Shown here one piece after another: positions 22,648-30,546 of a stretch of 30,546 bases of DNA (positions are counted from its first letter, which is position 1; every line of letters begins with the position of its first letter). The position numbers were made by a program, and so were the translations under genes. The DNA lies in the IMG/VR virus record IMGVR_UViG_3300020395_000061, positions 1 through 30,546 of that record; one strand, 5' to 3'. The notes under the pieces were generated by a model, which worked only from the letters and a program-made list of their open reading frames with translations, was not told the DNA's origin and searched no databases. This DNA comes from a virus.

Positions 22648-22884
22648 CTAAAATTTACGATAAGCACCCACTTCAGGGTCTGGGTCTAACCACTTTGTAT
22701 ATTCAACATCCTCAATAGCGAGGAGTAATTGATCTTCATTATCACAGTAATAAAAATCACTGTAACGTTTAGTCCAGTCATTAAATTTTTGAATACGGCA
22801 ATCAGGTTTACCGTTAATTTCTAATAGTCCACACTGGACATAACGATAAGGGTATCTCTCTAAAACTACAGTAGGTGCGGTCAT
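22648..22884 (-). CDS. 78-aa hypothetical protein
   Basis: Small soluble protein rich in Tyr and Asp, with VVLERYPYRYVQCGLLEING and a C-terminal WLDPDPEVGAYRKF. Its ATG overlaps the stop of the Phd-like gene (ATGA). Two Cys are present without a metal-site pattern, and no family is recognised. The alternating beta pattern in the first 30 residues suggests a compact fold. Confidence 0.7.
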   Translation of the reverse strand: MTAPTVVLERYPYRYVQCGLLEINGKPDCRIQKFNDWTKRYSDFYYCDNEDQLLLAIEDVEYTKWLDPDPEVGAYRKF

Positions 22885-23078
22885 GATGCATCAATGTGAC
22901 TGTTAATATCATACCATGCATCTGACCCAGTTGTGTCAGAAAGTTCCAGTTCTGAAGCTGGCACAGCAATAACTGCTCTACCATCTGGTTGCCTGATTAG
23001 AATTTTCTCACCATTTTCAATACGATCCATGTACTTGTCTGGATTCTTTTCAAATTCTTCTACTGTAAGTTCTGTCAT
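22881..23078 (-). CDS. Phd/YefM-like antitoxin-fold protein (65 aa)
   Basis: MTELTVEEFEKNPDKYMDR then IENGEKILIRQPDGRAVIAV matches the N-terminal fold of Phd/YefM (prevent-host-death) antitoxins: a strand, a helix, an ENGE turn and a hairpin with a GRAVAV-type strand. The frame opens upstream to 23129, but the ATG at 23078 is preferred because it overlaps the glutaredoxin stop as ATGA, like the other junctions in this operon. No toxin gene is adjacent: the next gene is a 78-aa protein of unknown type. It could be a DNA-binding autoregulator or a decoy antitoxin against a host toxin; both are inference. Confidence 0.65.
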   Translation of the reverse strand: MTELTVEEFEKNPDKYMDRIENGEKILIRQPDGRAVIAVPASELELSDTTGSDAWYDINSHIDAS

Positions 23079-23320
23079 AATACACAACAAATATTTTTGT
23101 CTTGCATATAGAGAAGAGATTCTTGACAACCACCTAACATGATGTCATCAAGAAGGATCTGTGGGAAAGTTGCACCTTCACCAAACTGTTCATAAAACTC
23201 TTCACGAGTGAAATCCTTATCTAATTCATATACTACATGATCTAGGTTCTCTAGTCTACACACTGATACAAACTTTTTACAAAATCTGCATCCTTTACGA
23301 GAGTATATGTTAAATGTCAT
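23075..23320 (-). CDS. grx: glutaredoxin
   Basis: 81-aa thioredoxin-fold protein with the dithiol active site CRFC (C11, C14) after the first strand (FNIYSRKGC), the cis-proline motif ATFPQIL and the GG signature (MLGGCQ) near residue 64. This is standard glutaredoxin architecture and length. It likely passes electrons from glutathione to the phage ribonucleotide reductase encoded in the same block, as NrdC does in T4. Start overlaps the talC stop as ATGA. The C-terminus has an extra CC pair (NICCVL), which is unusual and might be redox active. Confidence 0.88.
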   Translation of the reverse strand: MTFNIYSRKGCRFCKKFVSVCRLENLDHVVYELDKDFTREEFYEQFGEGATFPQILLDDIMLGGCQESLLYMQDKNICCVL

Positions 23321-24441: not shown

Positions 24442-25040
24442 GGTATCTGTGATGAACTCACATATAAATTGAAATTAATCACTGCTCTATAATAAGTATC
24501 TGTTTGTGACACTCCTCTATGTCTACCCTTTGGATTATCATTAGGAAATTCTATTAAACGATTCTCTAAGGAAGCAACCTTAGTACCATCTTCAAACTCA
24601 GTGTAACCATTATTAGTATTAACGTAGTAAATTAATGTAGTTAATGCAGGTTCAGGAATCTCTTTTCTATCACTATGATGTGAATAGAAATAATCATGAT
24701 GGAAATCAGATACAATGGGTTCTTTATTAGCAAGTTGTAAGTTTGCTTTTATTCTAGCAATAGAAATGCATCTATACTTATTCAAAATAGGTTGAAGTAT
24801 TTTAGAGTGCACTGAGTTCCTTTGCAATCTAGAATCAACAAAGAAATGATTCAACTGAGTATTATATGGGTCTGCTTCTCCACCATTATTATCAATAAAC
24901 TGTCTCTTATTTCTATAAAAATTAGAGTTCTCAATTGGAGTAGTTTTTTGGGAGAATGTCCAAGGAAAATCACTATCATGTAAAGTATACTGAATAGTTT
25001 TCCAATCATTATCACTAAGAAAGTTATCGTATATCTTCAT
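24429..25040 (-). CDS. 2OG-Fe(II) dioxygenase (203 aa)
   Basis: Double-stranded beta-helix oxygenase pattern. The iron ligands are the HxD motif in FHHDYF (His114, Asp116) and distal His174 in GRHRGV; Arg185 (YYRAVINFNLY) would bind 2-oxoglutarate. LTTLIYYVNTNNGYTEFEDG is the usual strand between them. These enzymes are common in marine cyanophages; the substrate is unknown and could be a nucleotide, protein or small molecule. It starts 17 bases inside the end of the GIY-YIG gene. It is one of two such enzymes in this operon; the other is at 27271..27789. Confidence 0.87.
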   Translation of the reverse strand: MKIYDNFLSDNDWKTIQYTLHDSDFPWTFSQKTTPIENSNFYRNKRQFIDNNGGEADPYNTQLNHFFVDSRLQRNSVHSKILQPILNKYRCISIARIKANLQLANKEPIVSDFHHDYFYSHHSDRKEIPEPALTTLIYYVNTNNGYTEFEDGTKVASLENRLIEFPNDNPKGRHRGVSQTDTYYRAVINFNLYVSSSQIPWKN

Positions 25041-25473
25041 GGTTAAAATAGTCCTTACGATAGTAACGACCTAATATATTGCTGTTATAAAATGCAGGTG
25101 TTCCGTCTTCTAAAGATTCAGTTAGAACTCCTCTTGCGAAGAGCTGTCTAGTCTCTTCATAATTGACTCTACCTGCGGTGGGATGGACTGAGAGGATTTC
25201 TCTTTTGAAATTCTCTCTGCCCACTCTTCTAATGTCTTGTTTAAGGTCTTCAGAGCTTCCGTAGTATCGTTTCCAGTCTGATTCGCTTGTGACCCTACGC
25301 TTGCCACCTTTAGGTTTTCGTTTCTGGTAGAAATATTTTCTTCCGATGTATTGTTGACCTGTCTGGATATTAGTAATCCTGTAGACAAAACCGAACTGGT
25401 CGCCAATATCATCAGAAGTGAAAGGTTTACCCTCATATATCCAGGGGTTTTCATAAACTCCCTCTTCAGCCAT
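25024..25473 (-). CDS. GIY-YIG endonuclease, SegE-like (149 aa)
   Basis: GIY-YIG nuclease signature: GFVYRITN (Phe29-Tyr31) and QYIGRK (Tyr42-Gly44, Arg45), with the probable metal-binding Glu in NYEETRQLF (about Glu107) and a late Asn. The region SDWKRYYGSSEDLKQDI and ENFKREIL matches the style of phage SegE-like free-standing homing nucleases. It may cut related phage DNA to favour its own inheritance, or process DNA. The DNA segment 25122-25454 is also open in another frame, and third-position GC in the shared part is about 40 percent against about 22 percent after the overlap ends (hand count). Confidence 0.82.
   Translation of the reverse strand: MAEEGVYENPWIYEGKPFTSDDIGDQFGFVYRITNIQTGQQYIGRKYFYQKRKPKGGKRRVTSESDWKRYYGSSEDLKQDIRRVGRENFKREILSVHPTAGRVNYEETRQLFARGVLTESLEDGTPAFYNSNILGRYYRKDYFNHEDIR
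25122..25454 (-). CDS. possible overprinted membrane-anchored coiled-coil protein (110 aa)
   Basis: A second frame on the same strand, almost fully overlapping the GIY-YIG gene. From the ATG at 25454 (GAAGAGG about six bases before it) it reads MKTPGYMRVNLSLLMILATS, one membrane helix (about residues 10-30), then a polar, helix-prone region (TEALKTLNKTLEEWAERISK). An earlier ATG at 25496 would add 14 residues. The topology of one N-terminal anchor and an external helical region resembles an i-spanin, but no relationship can be shown. Support is the frame length, ribosome-binding site and raised third-position GC in the main frame. It could still be a shadow of the nuclease gene. Confidence 0.35.
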   Translation of the reverse strand: MKTPGYMRVNLSLLMILATSSVLSTGLLISRQVNNTSEENISTRNENLKVASVGSQANQTGNDTTEALKTLNKTLEEWAERISKEKSSQSIPPQVESIMKRLDSSSQEEF

Positions 25474-25497
25474 TTCATAATTTTATTATCACTCATA

Positions 25498-25505
25498 TAT
25501 TTATG
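25498..25505 (-). promoter_or_regulatory. T4-late-promoter-like element
   Basis: CATAAATA on the minus strand, formed at the pcyA stop (CCA TAA ATA). The predicted start near 25492 excludes the ATG at 25496 but would give short leaders to the ATGs at 25473 and 25454. This is the only such motif I noticed inside the metabolic block. Confidence 0.4.
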
Positions 25506-26193
25506 GTTCGCTGAATAGTATCTCATTCATGTAAGTATCAGCCCATTCCTTACCAAAAAATTTAATTAATATATTTCTAGTTTTATCATTTAACTTCTGT
25601 TCCTTACAATAATCAACCTGACCATCATATCTCTCATCTGCTCCATCCAAATCTTCATCTTCATTCCAAACAGATCCTACAAATATTTCTAGGTACTGAT
25701 CTACTACCTCATTAAACTTACTAATATCCTTTGCATTATCTAATCTAGTAAATTTACAGTAAGGAGAAAACATTTCACCCCAAGCAGGAAGTTTTCTTTT
25801 TCCAGAAAAATTATAGTAACTACTTACCTGTGCAATGTCATCAAATATAGGTAAATCTAGACCATTTACTGGTGTTATATCAACTATAGCAGCAGTAATT
25901 AAATCTTTTGTTGGAGCGACAAGATCAACTCCAAAAATAGGTAGATTGTAATTAGGATCTGGCCAAAATACTGAATGTAATATCTCTAAACTACCAAGTT
26001 TTGCAGTCTCTAAATGTATCTTACGTAATCCATGACACTTAAACATTTCATTCTTAATGTATAAGTCTTCATCTTCAAAACTACTATGAACTGAAGCAAG
26101 TTCTGGCTTGACAGGTAGTGGTTCTATGCCTGGAAAATTTTCCCATGCAGAACGTATAAGTTTTGATAGTTCTTCTATTGCTGGATTAGGCAT
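25501..26193 (-). CDS. pcyA: phycocyanobilin:ferredoxin oxidoreductase
   Basis: 230-aa ferredoxin-dependent bilin reductase. The PcyA catalytic residues are visible: Glu62 in HLETAKLG (Glu76 of Synechocystis PcyA), His73 in ILHSVFWP (His88) and Asp90 in PIFGVDLV (Asp105). AAIVDITPV, LPAWGEMFS and YCKEQKLNDKTR with the C-terminal KEWADTYMNEILF are also family features. PcyA reduces biliverdin IXalpha to phycocyanobilin in two 2-electron steps using ferredoxin. The gene overlaps the end of pebS by 8 bases, so the two reductases are co-expressed. In a host with few phycobiliproteins the product may serve another purpose. No heme oxygenase gene is seen in the window to supply biliverdin. Confidence 0.93.
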   Translation of the reverse strand: MPNPAIEELSKLIRSAWENFPGIEPLPVKPELASVHSSFEDEDLYIKNEMFKCHGLRKIHLETAKLGSLEILHSVFWPDPNYNLPIFGVDLVAPTKDLITAAIVDITPVNGLDLPIFDDIAQVSSYYNFSGKRKLPAWGEMFSPYCKFTRLDNAKDISKFNEVVDQYLEIFVGSVWNEDEDLDGADERYDGQVDYCKEQKLNDKTRNILIKFFGKEWADTYMNEILFSEP

Positions 26194-26827
26194 AACTAAA
26201 AAAGAATTCCTTTATCAATGTTTCAGATTTTTCTTTACCAAATCTACTAGCCAAATAACCTGAAATTGGGTCTAGTCTTATCATATACTTATCAAAATCA
26301 TTATACTGTGTAGTGTCAGTACCAACTGGTTTATGTTCTTCTATCATTTCTTTATAAAATTCTAGATATTTTCTGAACATAGGTAGATGTTCATCAACCT
26401 CACTAGGAAGACAGTATCTGACGTATATATTTTCAGAGAAATGATTTCCTGGTTCAAAGAATCTATAAGTTCCCTCTGCTTTTGGTAATTTATCAGTTGA
26501 GAACAAATAATTTTCTACTGGGTGTTGAAAATCAAATACCAAGACTACTCTTTTCTCATTCATACCCATAAGATCCATACCAAAACAAGGAAGGTTACTT
26601 CCTGTCTTAGGATATATTATATTGTTATGAATATTGCAAGATTTATTATCCCAGATTTCTACCTGTCTTGATTTAATAAAGTATTCACCAGAATATAAAT
26701 CTGCTGTCAGATTTACACCCTTATCATTAGTCCATTCAGCATGACGCTGAACGTACTCTATATCTGGAAAAATTTCAGCAACGACTGCTTTATAATTTAC
26801 CCATAAATCATGGTTTTTTGGATTCAT
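26186..26827 (-). CDS. pebS: ferredoxin-dependent bilin reductase, phycoerythrobilin synthase type
   Basis: About 213 aa, resembling cyanophage PebS through NIIYPKTGSNLPCFGMDLM, VVLVFDFQHPVENYLFS, YRFFEPGNHFSENIYVRYC and DFDKYMIRLDPISGY. Asp85 (CFGMD) and Asp186 (RLDP) correspond to the two catalytic Asp residues of PebS (105 and 206 in the P-SSM2 enzyme). PebS converts biliverdin to phycoerythrobilin with four electrons from ferredoxin. A TTG start at 26866 is possible, but the ATG at 26827 aligns better with the N-terminus of the family and overlaps the coiled-coil gene by only 20 bases. PebA or PebB cannot be fully excluded from sequence alone. It is followed directly by pcyA. Confidence 0.87.
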   Translation of the reverse strand: MNPKNHDLWVNYKAVVAEIFPDIEYVQRHAEWTNDKGVNLTADLYSGEYFIKSRQVEIWDNKSCNIHNNIIYPKTGSNLPCFGMDLMGMNEKRVVLVFDFQHPVENYLFSTDKLPKAEGTYRFFEPGNHFSENIYVRYCLPSEVDEHLPMFRKYLEFYKEMIEEHKPVGTDTTQYNDFDKYMIRLDPISGYLASRFGKEKSETLIKEFFFSYA

Positions 26828-26996
26828 TGTGTAATACTTCAGGTAATCCCATAGTTTTATATTCAAGTTGTTCTTTTAAGAACTCAACTTGAGTCTTTAA
26901 CACTTCATTTTCTATCTCTAACTGATCTATATGTTCTTGGTATACAATAATCATACTTTCTAGCTCTTGATTTTTTAATTCTAAATCCCAATCCAT
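26808..26996 (-). CDS. 62-aa coiled-coil protein
   Basis: Almost all one helix with heptad-like spacing: MDWDLELKNQELESMIIVYQ, then HIDQLEIENEVLKTQVEFLK. The Leu/Ile/Val positions fit a parallel coiled coil of roughly 45 residues. No enzymatic motif. It begins three bases after the stop of the 113-aa frame at 27000 and overlaps the start of pebS. Third-position GC is about 23 percent by hand count, typical of this operon and useful as a control for the unusual neighbouring region. Partner unknown. Confidence 0.68.
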   Translation of the reverse strand: MDWDLELKNQELESMIIVYQEHIDQLEIENEVLKTQVEFLKEQLEYKTMGLPEVLHNESKKP

Positions 26997-26999
26997 TAG

Positions 27000-27341
27000 T
27001 TATAACCATGGATCTGGTATTATATCCCTTGGTCTTTCTGTTGTTGGAAAAACTCTTTGAGACTTGACTGACAATTGGGAGGTTCTGGGTCTTTGATACC
27101 CTTCTTCCTCTTCCAGTCGTTGTGCATCGCTTGCATCAACCAACTCTGGGCAAGACTCTTCGGTCCATTCATCAGCAATTCTCTGTTGAGTTTGCCGTGA
27201 ACTTTCATACCGAGGTACTCCTCTCTCCACGACTCGTCTCGTGGTTCTGATTCTGTACTCGCTGCCATTATTAATTTCCGATAGAATTGAAGTTGAGGTT
27301 GAGAGTAATCCTCTGACCGCCTTGCGGATAAGAGCACGCAT
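27000..27341 (-). CDS. 113-aa hypothetical protein overlapping two other frames
   Basis: Starts MRALIRKAVRGLLSTSTSIL with a strong AAGGAGGA ribosome-binding site before the ATG at 27341, inside the end of the 2OG oxygenase gene. It runs through Arg- and Glu-rich sequence (RRVVERGVPRYESSRQ, RIADEWTEESCPELVD) to PDPWL, stopping three bases before the coiled-coil gene. No family is recognised. It overlaps the 82-aa frame completely. Base use by codon position (about 35 percent GC at its third position) looks more like a normal coding frame than the overlapping one (about 55 percent). An upstream frame extension to 27392 is not supported by a start site. Confidence 0.55.
   Translation of the reverse strand: MRALIRKAVRGLLSTSTSILSEINNGSEYRIRTTRRVVERGVPRYESSRQTQQRIADEWTEESCPELVDASDAQRLEEEEGYQRPRTSQLSVKSQRVFPTTERPRDIIPDPWL
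27020..27268 (-). CDS. 82-aa hypothetical protein nested in another frame
   Basis: Starts MAASTESEPRDESWREEYLG two bases after the oxygenase stop (TAA TA ATG), which is typical spacing for this operon. It continues with MKVHGKLNRELLMNGPKSLA and AQSWLMQAMHNDWKRKKG, a convincing small helical, basic protein. It lies wholly within the 113-aa frame at 27000..27341. Its third-position GC of about 55 percent (45 of 82 codons, hand count) is far above its neighbour's 23 percent, as expected when another frame constrains the bases. Either this, the other frame or both may be expressed. No family recognised. Confidence 0.55.
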   Translation of the reverse strand: MAASTESEPRDESWREEYLGMKVHGKLNRELLMNGPKSLAQSWLMQAMHNDWKRKKGIKDPEPPNCQSSLKEFFQQQKDQGI

Positions 27342-27789
27342 GTGATATTCCTCCTTCAAATACAACGAGCCTATTTTTCTTAGGTGTAACACTATCTATA
27401 ACCTCTAACTTATCATCAAAGAAATAAGTGTCACCAGTGGAATCATTTACATAATAAATGACAACAGTATGTTTATCATGTTGCTCAATATGAGGAGCTT
27501 GATGGAGATCTTCAAAAGGCATTGGTACATTCATACCAAATTTTACCCTAGTTATATATGATTTCTTATCAATACTAGCTTTCTCACCCAAAAGATTAAC
27601 AATTGATTCAAATCTAACAAAATTTGCTTCATCAATAATTGATTGTTTATTATGATAATCATATAAAGGTTTAATAAATGATGGAAAGTTTCTATCAACT
27701 TGATAAGACCATTGAAAGTCAAATCTAGTAGTCATATCTTCAACAAAATCAGCAGTTGATTCTGGAAGAACATTATCAATAATTTTCAT
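27271..27789 (-). CDS. 2OG-Fe(II) dioxygenase with HxE-type iron site (172 aa)
   Basis: Double-stranded beta-helix oxygenase: FEDLHQAPHIEQHDKHTV gives the first ligand pair, probably His100 and Glu102 (HxE in place of the usual HxD), then VVIYYVNDSTGDTYFFDD, the distal His150 (GGISHACSYP) and the 2-oxoglutarate-binding Arg160 (QRITLNLNFN). The arrangement resembles small phage prolyl-hydroxylase-like enzymes; the substrate is unknown. It overlaps the nrdB stop as ATGA and lies next to the ribonucleotide reductase genes. Its last 71 bases are also read in the 113-aa frame. His104-Asp105 nearby is an alternative ligand choice. Confidence 0.82.
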   Translation of the reverse strand: MKIIDNVLPESTADFVEDMTTRFDFQWSYQVDRNFPSFIKPLYDYHNKQSIIDEANFVRFESIVNLLGEKASIDKKSYITRVKFGMNVPMPFEDLHQAPHIEQHDKHTVVIYYVNDSTGDTYFFDDKLEVIDSVTPKKNRLVVFEGGISHACSYPQGGQRITLNLNFNSIGN

Positions 27790-28934
27790 AGTTTAAATCC
27801 AGCGAATGTGTCTTTTTTAACGTCTTGTTTAATACTACCTATCATATAGGACTCTACTTCTGTCTCTTGTGGTGCTACCTGTAGTCCTTTAGAAGACAAC
27901 CAGTGTGCAGTCCAAGGTAATGGGTTGTTTGCAAGTGGTACATCAAAGATAGGTTTCAATCCTATAGATTTTAACCTACGATTAGCAGTCCACTCAACAT
28001 AGTTCTGTAGTAATTTATCATTCAAACCAATGATAGATCCATCCTTAAAGAGATACTCTGCCCATTCTTTTTCTTCTTGGACACAAGACTTAAACATTTC
28101 GTAAATAAAGTCTTCTTCTTCCTTAATGATATCCATCATCTCTGGGTCATCACCTTCCTTCCACTTGTTTAATATATTATTGGTGACTGCCATGTGTTGT
28201 GATTCATCCCTAGCAATAAGGGAGATGATCTTGGCACTTCCTTCAAGTAACTTAAGCTCACCAAATGCAAAGGAGCAAGCGAAAGAGACATAAAAGCGAA
28301 TACCTTCAAGAATGTATACATTAGCAACTGCCCTATATAAATGTCGTTTTAAATCTTTACGTGTCCATTCAGAATTAGGATGATCTCTCATACCATCTGT
28401 CCAAGCAGTACTCTGACCATACTCATTAGCATAGTTAATGAACTCATCGTATGCTTTAGTCACTGACTCAGCACGTGCAAGTATCTTCTCATCATCTAGT
28501 ATAGTATCAAAGACCTCTGATGGATCTGGGTATACATTCTTAATGATGTGAGTATATGATCTGCTATGAATCATCTCCATAGTCTGCCATATATTCATGC
28601 AACCTTCAAGCTCAGGTAGTGAACAGTATGGAGCAAAAGCCATACCAGGAGCACGACCTTGTACACTGTCCAAGAGGATTTGATACTTGAGATTGCTAGT
28701 AAATATGTGTTTCTGTGCTGCATTTAAAGTCTGATAATCTGCCCGATCTTTCTGGAGTGATACCTCTTCAGGTCTCCAGAAAAATCCTAATTGTGTCTGT
28801 GTTAGCTTATCAAAAATAGGATACTTAAACTTATCATAACGTTGTACTCCTAATGGAGGACCAAAGAACATTTGTCCTTTGGTGGTATCTACTTGATCAG
28901 TATTGAATACTGTCATGTGATTTACACTAGTCAT
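27786..28934 (-). CDS. nrdB: ribonucleoside-diphosphate reductase, beta (radical) subunit
   Basis: 382-aa class Ia NrdB. The di-iron and tyrosyl radical motifs are present: LLDSVQGR (Asp89), MEMIHSRSYTHI (Glu120, His123, radical Tyr127), LEGIRFYVSFA and ARDESQHMA. It forms the complex with NrdA that makes deoxynucleotides for phage replication. A longer TTG-initiated reading to 28982 overlaps nrdA; the ATG at 28934, eight bases after the nrdA stop, was chosen because it follows the upstream gene and fits family length. The C-terminal tail (VKKDTFAGFKL) should contact NrdA. Confidence 0.95.
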   Translation of the reverse strand: MTSVNHMTVFNTDQVDTTKGQMFFGPPLGVQRYDKFKYPIFDKLTQTQLGFFWRPEEVSLQKDRADYQTLNAAQKHIFTSNLKYQILLDSVQGRAPGMAFAPYCSLPELEGCMNIWQTMEMIHSRSYTHIIKNVYPDPSEVFDTILDDEKILARAESVTKAYDEFINYANEYGQSTAWTDGMRDHPNSEWTRKDLKRHLYRAVANVYILEGIRFYVSFACSFAFGELKLLEGSAKIISLIARDESQHMAVTNNILNKWKEGDDPEMMDIIKEEEDFIYEMFKSCVQEEKEWAEYLFKDGSIIGLNDKLLQNYVEWTANRRLKSIGLKPIFDVPLANNPLPWTAHWLSSKGLQVAPQETEVESYMIGSIKQDVKKDTFAGFKL

Positions 28935-28941
28935 GTTAGTT

Positions 28942-30546
28942 CTAAATTTTACAGCTGTCACAATCTTCTTCCTCCGTATCAAATATGTCTTCTAACAAAT
29001 CTTCTATACTTTGTTTCTTATCTTCTGTTAAAAGTGGCTCATCATCACTCTTAGTATCATATGTATTCTGATAGTAAGAGGTCTTCCAACCATACTTATA
29101 TGTTGTTAAAAAATCCTGTGCCATAACACTAACAGGTACCTCATTATCAGGATAATTCTCTGGATTATAACTCCAGTTACCACTAATTGCTTGGTCAAAG
29201 AACTTTTGCATAGCAGATACTATTTTTATGTATCCTTCATTATCTTTCATATCCCAGAGCAAAGTATAATTGTTCTTCAATGTTGTATATTGTGGAACAA
29301 TTTGCTTAAGTGGTCCCTTCTTGGACTTCTTAGTTGACAAATAACCTCTAGGTGGTTCTATACCATTTGTGGCATTAGAAACCACTGAGGATGATTCTGA
29401 AGGCATCTGAGCAGACAATGTAGAATGCCTTAAACCATGTTCTTTTATATCTTCTCTAAGTGATTCCCAATCATTAGTTAATTCTGTTCCACAGAACTCA
29501 TCAATATCACGCTTGTACGTATCAATTGGGAGGATACCGTCTGAATACTTGGTGCGATGGAAATATTCACATGCTCCTTTTTCTTTTGCGATTTCGTTAC
29601 TGGACTTGAGTAGATAGAACTGGAAAGATTCAGACAAGTCGTGTACGAGTTTCCATGCTTCTGGGTCTCCATAGGATTTTCCTTGTTTTGCTAGGTAATG
29701 TGCTAGTCCGATATAACCAATACCAAGAGAACGACGTGCTAAAGTAGAAACTTTAGCAGCTTCAACAGGATAATTTTGATAATCAATAAGTTCCTCTAGA
29801 CCACGGACAGATAGGTCACAGAGATTTTCAAGTTCTTCTAACTTATTGATTTTACCTATGTTAATAGCAGAGAGAATACACAATGCAATCTCACCCTCAC
29901 CATCAATGTGTTGTAATGGTGTAGTAGGTAAGGTAATTTCTTGACAAAGGTTACTCATGCTCACTTTATCTTTAAAAGATGAGTGAACATTACAATGGTC
30001 AATATTCATTAGATAAAGACGACCAGTTTCTGCTCTCTCTTTTAATATATCAAGAATTAATTCTTGAGCATTAACTTTTATTTTTTTAACAGATGTATCA
30101 TTCTCATACTTTACGTATAAGTCATTAAAACTTTCTGTACCAAAACTATCATAAAGCCCTGGAACATCATGAGGAGAAAAAAGACTAATCTCCTCGTTGT
30201 CAATAAATCTCTGGTAGAATAATTCACTAATTTGTATACTATAATCTAACTTTCTGACTCTGTTGTCTTCTGTTCCTTTGTTGTTTTTGAGGACGATGAT
30301 GTCTTGGATTTCTTGATGCCAGATAGGAAAGTGGACAGTAGCCGATCCTCCTCTAATACCGTTTTGCGTACAGCATCTGACAGTTGACTCAAATTTTTTA
30401 AGGAAGGGGACCACACCTGTGTGCTGAACTTCTCCACCCCTGATTTTAGAATTGATTCCCCTGATTCTACCTGCGTTAATACCGATACCAGCCCTCTGTG
30501 CGACATATTTGCCAATAGCCATATCACTGCTAAAGATACTATCGAG
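28942..30546 (-). CDS. nrdA: ribonucleoside-diphosphate reductase, alpha (catalytic) subunit, 5' end outside window
   Basis: The window holds the last 534 codons; the frame stays open to the right edge (LDSIFSSDMAIGKYVAQRAG), so the start and the N-terminal ATP-cone and first active-site Cys are missing. Visible class Ia features: SNLCQEITL (Asn, Cys, Glu of the active site), ALCILSA (redox-partner Cys), MPSESSS, NGIEPPRGY and the radical-transfer pair in TSYYQNT. The C-terminal tail ends DCDSCKI with Cys in a CxxC spacing, shorter than the CxxxxC of E. coli NrdA. It reduces ribonucleotides with NrdB, and the operon glutaredoxin may be its reductant. It ends eight bases before nrdB. Confidence 0.95.
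   Translation of the reverse strand, partial: LDSIFSSDMAIGKYVAQRAGIGINAGRIRGINSKIRGGEVQHTGVVPFLKKFESTVRCCTQNGIRGGSATVHFPIWHQEIQDIIVLKNNKGTEDNRVRKLDYSIQISELFYQRFIDNEEISLFSPHDVPGLYDSFGTESFNDLYVKYENDTSVKKIKVNAQELILDILKERAETGRLYLMNIDHCNVHSSFKDKVSMSNLCQEITLPTTPLQHIDGEGEIALCILSAINIGKINKLEELENLCDLSVRGLEELIDYQNYPVEAAKVSTLARRSLGIGYIGLAHYLAKQGKSYGDPEAWKLVHDLSESFQFYLLKSSNEIAKEKGACEYFHRTKYSDGILPIDTYKRDIDEFCGTELTNDWESLREDIKEHGLRHSTLSAQMPSESSSVVSNATNGIEPPRGYLSTKKSKKGPLKQIVPQYTTLKNNYTLLWDMKDNEGYIKIVSAMQKFFDQAISGNWSYNPENYPDNEVPVSVMAQDFLTTYKYGWKTSYYQNTYDTKSDDEPLLTEDKKQSIEDLLEDIFDTEEEDCDSCKI

Follow-up and report, generated by a model that had tools for sequence, protein, structure and literature searches.

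The locus described here is very probably a pair of same-strand overlapping genes, one encoding a PHROG 16908 protein and the other a shortened relative of the PHROG 6464 proteins, as judged by comparison with related viral sequences. It lies in a 30,546-nucleotide stretch of viral DNA (the window), in which an 82-aa and a 113-aa frame have 249 bases in common, the latter being in the +2 frame relative to the former (Table 1). The sequence-only reading from which this analysis started had given both frames with exact coordinates and had counted their third-position GC content (GC3) by hand at about 35 percent (113-aa frame) and 55 percent (82-aa frame), with 23 percent in the next gene; the computed values are 0.354, 0.549, and 0.226. 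Its observation that the 113-aa stop lies 3 bases ahead of the next gene was confirmed as well (next ATG at position 26996). It had, however, placed the 113-aa frame between the oxygenase and the coiled-coil gene, missing that the final 71 bases of the oxygenase gene are likewise covered by this frame. The strong ribosome-binding site it had noted for the 113-aa frame, AAGGAGGA, is present, but the same bases, like the ATG, serve as the oxygenase codons F-E-G-G-I-S-H-A, so that the site by itself proves little; close relatives show identical or similar bases ahead of the ATG. The oxygenase-like gene matched PHROG 274 at 2.6e-29 (named DNA endonuclease V in the PHROG library) and Pfam PF13640 at 1.9e-5 with 25.9 bits, i.e., below the cut-off of 27.

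Table 1. Features of the overlapping locus, its neighbors, and a second overlapping pair in the window
Feature	Position	Strand	Remarks
113-aa frame	27341..27000	-	Arginine-rich, ends in IPDPWL; shortened PHROG 6464 / T4-GC 410 relative
82-aa frame	27268..27020	-	PHROG 16908 / T4-GC 284 member, predicted small helical protein
IPDPW codons of 113-aa frame	27006..27020	-	Shares its first base with the end of the 82-aa stop
Overlap of 113-aa frame with oxygenase 3' end	27271..27341	-	71 bases
AAGGAGGA, candidate ribosome-binding site of 113-aa frame	27349..27356	-	Also encodes oxygenase FEGG
2OG-Fe(II)-oxygenase-like gene	27271..27789	-	Directly upstream of the pair; PHROG 274 and Pfam PF13640
62-aa coiled-coil-like next gene	26808..26996	-	Begins 3 bases past the 113-aa stop
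nrdB (ribonucleotide reductase beta)	27786..28982	-	Upstream of the oxygenase
GIY-YIG gene	25024-25473	-	PHROG 447
134-aa frame	25122-25526	-	PHROG 8965; hydrophobic N-terminal stretch

The database search proposed for both proteins identified one of them directly. The 82-aa protein matched PHROG 16908 at 1.7e-32 with residues 6 to 82 of 82 aligned to profile positions 3 to 78 of 78, i.e., it is a near full-length member of this family (T4-GC 284; a shorter profile is PHROG 869). In tblastn searches (E up to 10), it matched 210 phage records, 39 of them at a coverage of at least 80%, and all but two of the 210 are cyanophages or marine viruses. The 113-aa protein gave no PHROG or Pfam match at an E value of 1 or better, the PHROG 6464 whole-protein profile included, and its tblastn search returned nine cyanophage or marine-virus records whose matched sites are also hit, in a different frame, by the 82-aa frame, because annotated cyanophages read PHROG 6464 over PHROG 16908. 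Specifically, P-SSM4, P-HM1, P-RSM4, and S-SSM7 annotate a protein of 128 to 178 aa, assigned to T4-GC 410 in the record notes and to PHROG 6464 by profile, whose C-terminal part runs in +2 over an intact but unannotated PHROG 16908 frame. In P-SSM2, P-SSM7, and S-SSM5, the sole annotated gene is that of PHROG 16908 (T4-GC 284), and the other frame is full of stops.

The predicted 113-aa protein corresponds to the C-terminal part of the PHROG 6464 / T4-GC 410 family. It shares with the annotated members (e.g., PSSM4_112 of P-SSM4 and PHM1_175 of P-HM1) the +2 frame over PHROG 16908, a homologous overlapped part, and the PDPW tail, although many PHROG 6464 members stop before PDPW. Unlike the family, it lacks the approximately 75-aa N-terminal helical domain; no match to this domain (FGxGxDPWYxK...) was found within the window. 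The putative 113-aa protein is accordingly classed as a derived PHROG 6464 relative and not as a member.

Related loci were taken from six viral-contig scans and from phage records, and all contig-derived counts refer to the matches listed. Collapsing identical 82-type genes and excluding loci that had no in-locus stop or no W motif reduced 499 sequences to 277. Among these at least 277 distinct PHROG 16908 genes, 70 were window-type (PDPW tail and a second frame open throughout, without a PHROG 6464 N-domain), 16 belonged to a long PHROG 6464 class (N-domain, open second frame, PDPW), 98 to a short class (N-domain present, second frame stopping near codon 48), and 88 had no second gene, with five others; the four classes are defined by openness, so that "open" within a class is not itself a result. 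Removal of gaps and identical rows left 67 of 70, 13 of 16, 85 of 98, and 87 of 88 sequences, respectively. The N-domain is absent from the 70 window-type loci by definition of the class, and 62 of them have at least 300 bases upstream. Where an N-domain was present among the listed loci it lay in the second frame (116/116), and it was found in none of the 88 loci without a second gene, which carry 4 to 16 stops in that frame (mean, 9.7). Among loci whose 82-aa protein is at least 80% identical to that of the window, each of the 37 distinct ones has an open second frame; at 70 to 80% identity, the second gene was present in 31 of 40 loci and missing in 9. A few loci sit at the borders of these classes: L329, counted as window-type, is a truncated long PHROG 6464 form; L560, L561, L562, L571, and L574, labeled window-type for the start codon test, show no N-domain pattern and may be variant PHROG 6464 loci; in L138 and L147, the second frame is fully open and ends in LDYSMKEHFFSPLNP rather than PDPW.

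Selection on the second frame was most clearly visible as avoidance of stop codons. The tree of 67 distinct window-type loci carried 320 silent substitutions in the 82-type frame, among which 32.6 stop-creating changes in the second frame were expected and none was observed, zero being partly a product of selecting open loci. Since the window-type class is chosen by openness, the test was repeated on unconditioned sets. In 73 distinct loci chosen by 82-aa protein identity alone (at least 70%), nine of which have no second gene, silent changes created 4.5 stops in the second frame where 33.7 were expected (P = 1.4e-10); for the clade including members that lack the second gene or differ in it, 6.4 were observed and 36.9 expected (P = 3.8e-10); Fisher and Poisson values here ignore part of the shared ancestry. 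Depletion was seen neither in the third frame (8.7 expected and 23.6 observed in the 73-locus set, 9.0 and 20.5 in the 67 window-type loci) nor in 87 relatives without a second gene (19.9 and 40.1). It was modest in short PHROG 6464 loci (10.2 expected versus 3.0 observed), and for the 13 distinct long loci, the numbers are small (3.2 versus 0). For these values, ties were resolved at random and each change was scored on the actual child codon; a variant that resolved ties to A and scored changes in a different way gave 33.6 expected and 6 observed for window-type loci and 12.7 and 8 for short PHROG 6464 loci.

Constraint at individual silent sites points in the same direction. The silent divergence of the overlapped part of PHROG 16908 genes relative to the later part was 0.42 (0.28 to 0.58) in short PHROG 6464 loci, compared with 0.94 (0.74 to 1.15) for the same gene parts in loci without a second gene, and in the GVFGDEGW region several silent sites are identical in 98 of 98 short loci. 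At one four-fold degenerate proline codon of the 82-type frame, all 86 window-type and long loci use CCG, which reads as glutamate in the other frame; of the 88 loci lacking a second gene, 1 does so. Stop avoidance would rule out CCT alone at this codon. The 82-aa PHROG 16908 protein is under strong purifying selection (dNN/dSN = 0.13), whereas the dN/dS-type ratio of the second frame across the overlap in window-type loci was 1.15 (0.61 to 2.50), with no amino acid constraint visible over the 44 codons used; the second protein is free to change apart from stops, its tail, and a few sites. Selection is seen in both frames, in the second one as stop depletion but not in its amino acid ratio for window-type loci. 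Loci with one frame broken and the other intact, which the sequence-only reading had named as a refutation, do occur, namely in 88 of the 277 distinct listed relatives, but 77 of the 81 that were placed on the tree cluster together in a group of their own, which lacks the second gene. Double coding constraint, which had been proposed from codon-position composition, is upheld by the depletion of stop-creating silent changes, the conserved C-terminal motif, and a start codon conserved in nrdB-linked relatives, and on these sequence patterns the double-coding reading is well supported.

The C-terminal motif I[PS]DPW occurs at or near the end of the second frame in 86 of the 90 listed distinct loci that are open to the end. 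It changes almost solely at silent positions (CCA 49, CCC 34, and CCT 1; GAC 57 and GAT 29; CCG 40, CCT 25, CCC 17, and CCA 4), apart from two P-to-S changes. It is located past the 82-type stop in 45 loci; in 41 the 82-type frame runs through it, reading KYQ[TI][RPHL]G and varying where the second frame is silent. Three relatives (L563, L564, and L565) combine the N-domain motif and PDPW without a PHROG 16908 frame, so the motif belongs to the PHROG 6464-type protein. This codon pattern indicates a motif conserved at the protein level.

The putative start of the second frame was examined through nrdB. In many window-type relatives the pair is situated directly 3' of nrdB, and the ATG of the second frame falls within the 3' end of nrdB. 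Full PHROG 6464 genes begin at this position in the S-H9-1 and S-RIM32 records, so that S-H9-1-type genes share this ATG with the window's nrdB-linked relatives. An nrdB end was recognized by pattern in 28 of 70 window-type loci, and about 22 more have the same bases before the ATG. The conserved N-terminus MLRKILS was dropped as independent evidence, since it turned out to be a translation of the nrdB 3' end in another frame, and nrdB codon choice was tested instead: the internal ATG requires one nrdB aspartate codon to be GAT. This codon was GAT in 49 of 49 distinct nrdB ends with a long second frame, which were picked by the frame running on irrespective of the ATG, and in 11 of 32 elsewhere (Fisher, 9e-12, a value too small given shared ancestry). 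The window's own nrdB, one gene further off and not the start site, has GAC. The conservation pattern supports use of the nrdB-internal ATG as a putative start.

Several other readings of the locus were weighed against double coding. If the 82-aa frame were the sole gene and the other frame open through composition or chance, the high GC3 of 0.549, which lowers the number of stops, would be part of the explanation: when the synonymous codons of the gene itself were permuted, 0.64% of 100,000 trials gave an open second frame, and the amino acid ratio of the second frame is not under 1. None of 200,000 back-translations of the 82-aa protein based on window codon usage, however, was free of stops in the other frame (mean, 9.0 stops), a high GC3 accompanies the presence of the second gene (mean, 0.57 in window-type loci versus 0.35 in loci without it, and 0.182 in 13 window genes pooled), stops are depleted even without conditioning on openness, and the motif is conserved past the end of the 82-aa frame. 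A chance open frame was rejected on the basis of the codon simulations, the conserved tail, and the unconditioned stop depletion, and the sole-gene reading as a whole is very improbable. A conserved RNA or DNA element in place of protein coding is less probable still, as the motif varies in the third positions of its second-frame codons (CCN, GAY, CCN), which is a coding pattern. That most residues vary, and that selection is clearest against stops, would also fit a second frame in which translation alone matters, e.g., ribosome passage controlling the 82-aa gene, the peptide being functionless; conservation of PDPW and of the internal glutamate as amino acids, and the occurrence of PDPW without an overlap, argue against this and leave it improbable. 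Somewhat less credit still is due to -1 frameshifting from the 82-aa frame, which the frame relation permits and which would yield a fusion rather than an independently started protein, given that an N-domain of their own leads PHROG 6464 genes into the same frame in 116 of the 277 distinct listed loci and that the nrdB-internal ATG is kept in 49 of 49 nrdB ends.

Which of the two frames is the older one is a separate matter. Breadth, predicted fold, and disorder suggest that the 82-type gene came first: at E values up to 10, PHROG 16908 is found in 210 records and the PHROG 6464 N-domain in 63; PHROG 16908 is predicted to be folded and stands alone in P-SSM2, P-SSM7, and S-SSM5; and an arginine-rich, basic, and predicted disordered +2 frame fits the published de novo frames, as far as described in the part of PMC8227390 available to us. 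Presence and absence of the second gene required 4 changes on the tree compared with at least 58 in 200 shuffles, and the parsimony root state is absence, the tree being rooted by midpoint. Codon usage suggests the reverse: in each of the three overlapping classes, that of the second frame is nearer to the window genes than that of the 82-type frame (0.30 versus 0.14, 0.32 versus 0.15, and 0.48 versus 0.29, compared without a significance test), and PDPW tails exist without PHROG 16908. The opposite history, in which PHROG 6464 is older and PHROG 16908 was overprinted on it and later spread alone, is a serious possibility, but we consider it doubtful; an older 82-type gene is the probable order of events. 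The second gene is missing in L237, L074, and L078, which lie inside a clade that has it, and in P-RSM6 the families are apart, the PHROG 6464-type gene lying at 60 kb and the PHROG 16908 gene at 171 kb.

The AlphaFold model of the 82-aa protein consists of helices (mean pLDDT, 74). A fold search against the PDB gave no match (best E value, 9.4), and the best matches in BFVD were uncharacterized cyanophage proteins of the same kind, two at an E value of 0.001 or better. By sequence, no solved structure was found for PHROG 16908, and hits for PHROG 6464 were at E values of 0.87 or worse. For the long PHROG 6464 form, AlphaFold predicted two moderately confident helices and nothing else, with low confidence across the overlapped part; the model suggests that most of the second protein, variable in sequence, is probably disordered. 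Taken as an overlapping pair, one frame of the locus would thus yield the small, helical 82-aa PHROG 16908 protein, and the +2 frame a 113-aa protein that would do without the PHROG 6464 N-terminal helical domain and retain the overlapped, arginine-rich, probably disordered part with the PDPW motif at its end. Such a disordered protein might conceivably present PDPW as a short binding motif to a phage or host partner.

The Rz and Rz1 spanin genes of phage lambda are a nested same-strand pair in a dsDNA phage. There, too, two proteins are read from one stretch in two frames, but the sequences are unrelated to the window pair; inspection by eye of the 82-aa and 113-aa sequences revealed no membrane or lipoprotein signal, i.e., no spanin traits. 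The de novo overprinted viral proteins treated in the accessible part of PMC8227390 are likewise in +2, arginine-rich, predicted to be disordered, and of restricted range, but the window pair, unlike them, is located in a large dsDNA phage. Among PHROG 16908 genes, 88 of the 277 distinct listed members are without a second gene; the window member has one read through it. Literature listings for overlapping genes in phages and cyanophages, for gene clusters and proteomics of cyanophages, and for six of the locus tags show nothing on the pair, and the main text of PMC3037559, as far as available, lacks 410 and 284 as whole words. The suggestion of a new overprinted cyanophage pair therefore needs qualification: both frames are related to annotated families, so it is the pair that is new rather than the proteins.

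Of 13 fetched annotated phage records with the overlap, 10 annotate the PHROG 6464 gene alone, S-TIM4 has the PHROG 6464 gene and a fragment in the other gene's place, and P-RSM3 and S-WAM2 annotate neither; with most records annotating one frame alone, a gene is hidden in well-known marine phages. Individual records also show irregularities. S-RIM8 A.HR5 (L501) has an internal stop in the unannotated PHROG 16908-type frame, with the PHROG 6464 frame intact, and both frames are intact in the other S-RIM8 record (L529); in P-RSM3 (L254), the PHROG 6464 N-domain and the overlapped part are in different frames, as after a one-base shift. In S-WAM2, an overlapping pair of annotated genes, one of them GIY-YIG, lies next to the PHROG 6464 frame.

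A second same-strand pair in the window, formed by the GIY-YIG and PHROG 8965 frames, overlaps by 352 bases. Relatives were selected solely on the GIY-YIG protein, and in all 71 distinct ones the second frame was free of stops over 84 codons; in these sequences, 0.7 silent changes created a stop in it, compared with an expectation of 21.3 (control frame, 50.1 observed and 51.9 expected). Shorter overlaps on the same strand occur between tandem PHROG 7278 (ferredoxin oxidoreductase) genes at 25501-26193 and 26186-26866 (8 bases), which are of the phycocyanobilin type in a related record, and between a Phd-like antitoxin match (PHROG 375) at 22881-23129 and a short PHROG 22 frame at 23075-23320 (55 bases), the latter matching the C-terminal half of a thioredoxin-domain family.

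With modest confidence, we are inclined to the view that one cyanophage lineage lost the PHROG 6464 N-domain and that the overlapped tail took its start codon from the upstream gene (nrdB or the oxygenase gene) and became a stand-alone gene ending in a putative PDPW binding motif; together with the GIY-YIG pair 1.5 kb away, this would mean that cyanophages may hold a class of long overlaps hidden from annotation. The same two genes are found fully overlapped, partly overlapped, apart, and with one missing, which makes the locus a well-sampled natural case; as all of these arrangements have been sampled, the formation and dissolution of overlaps in large DNA phages become directly testable.
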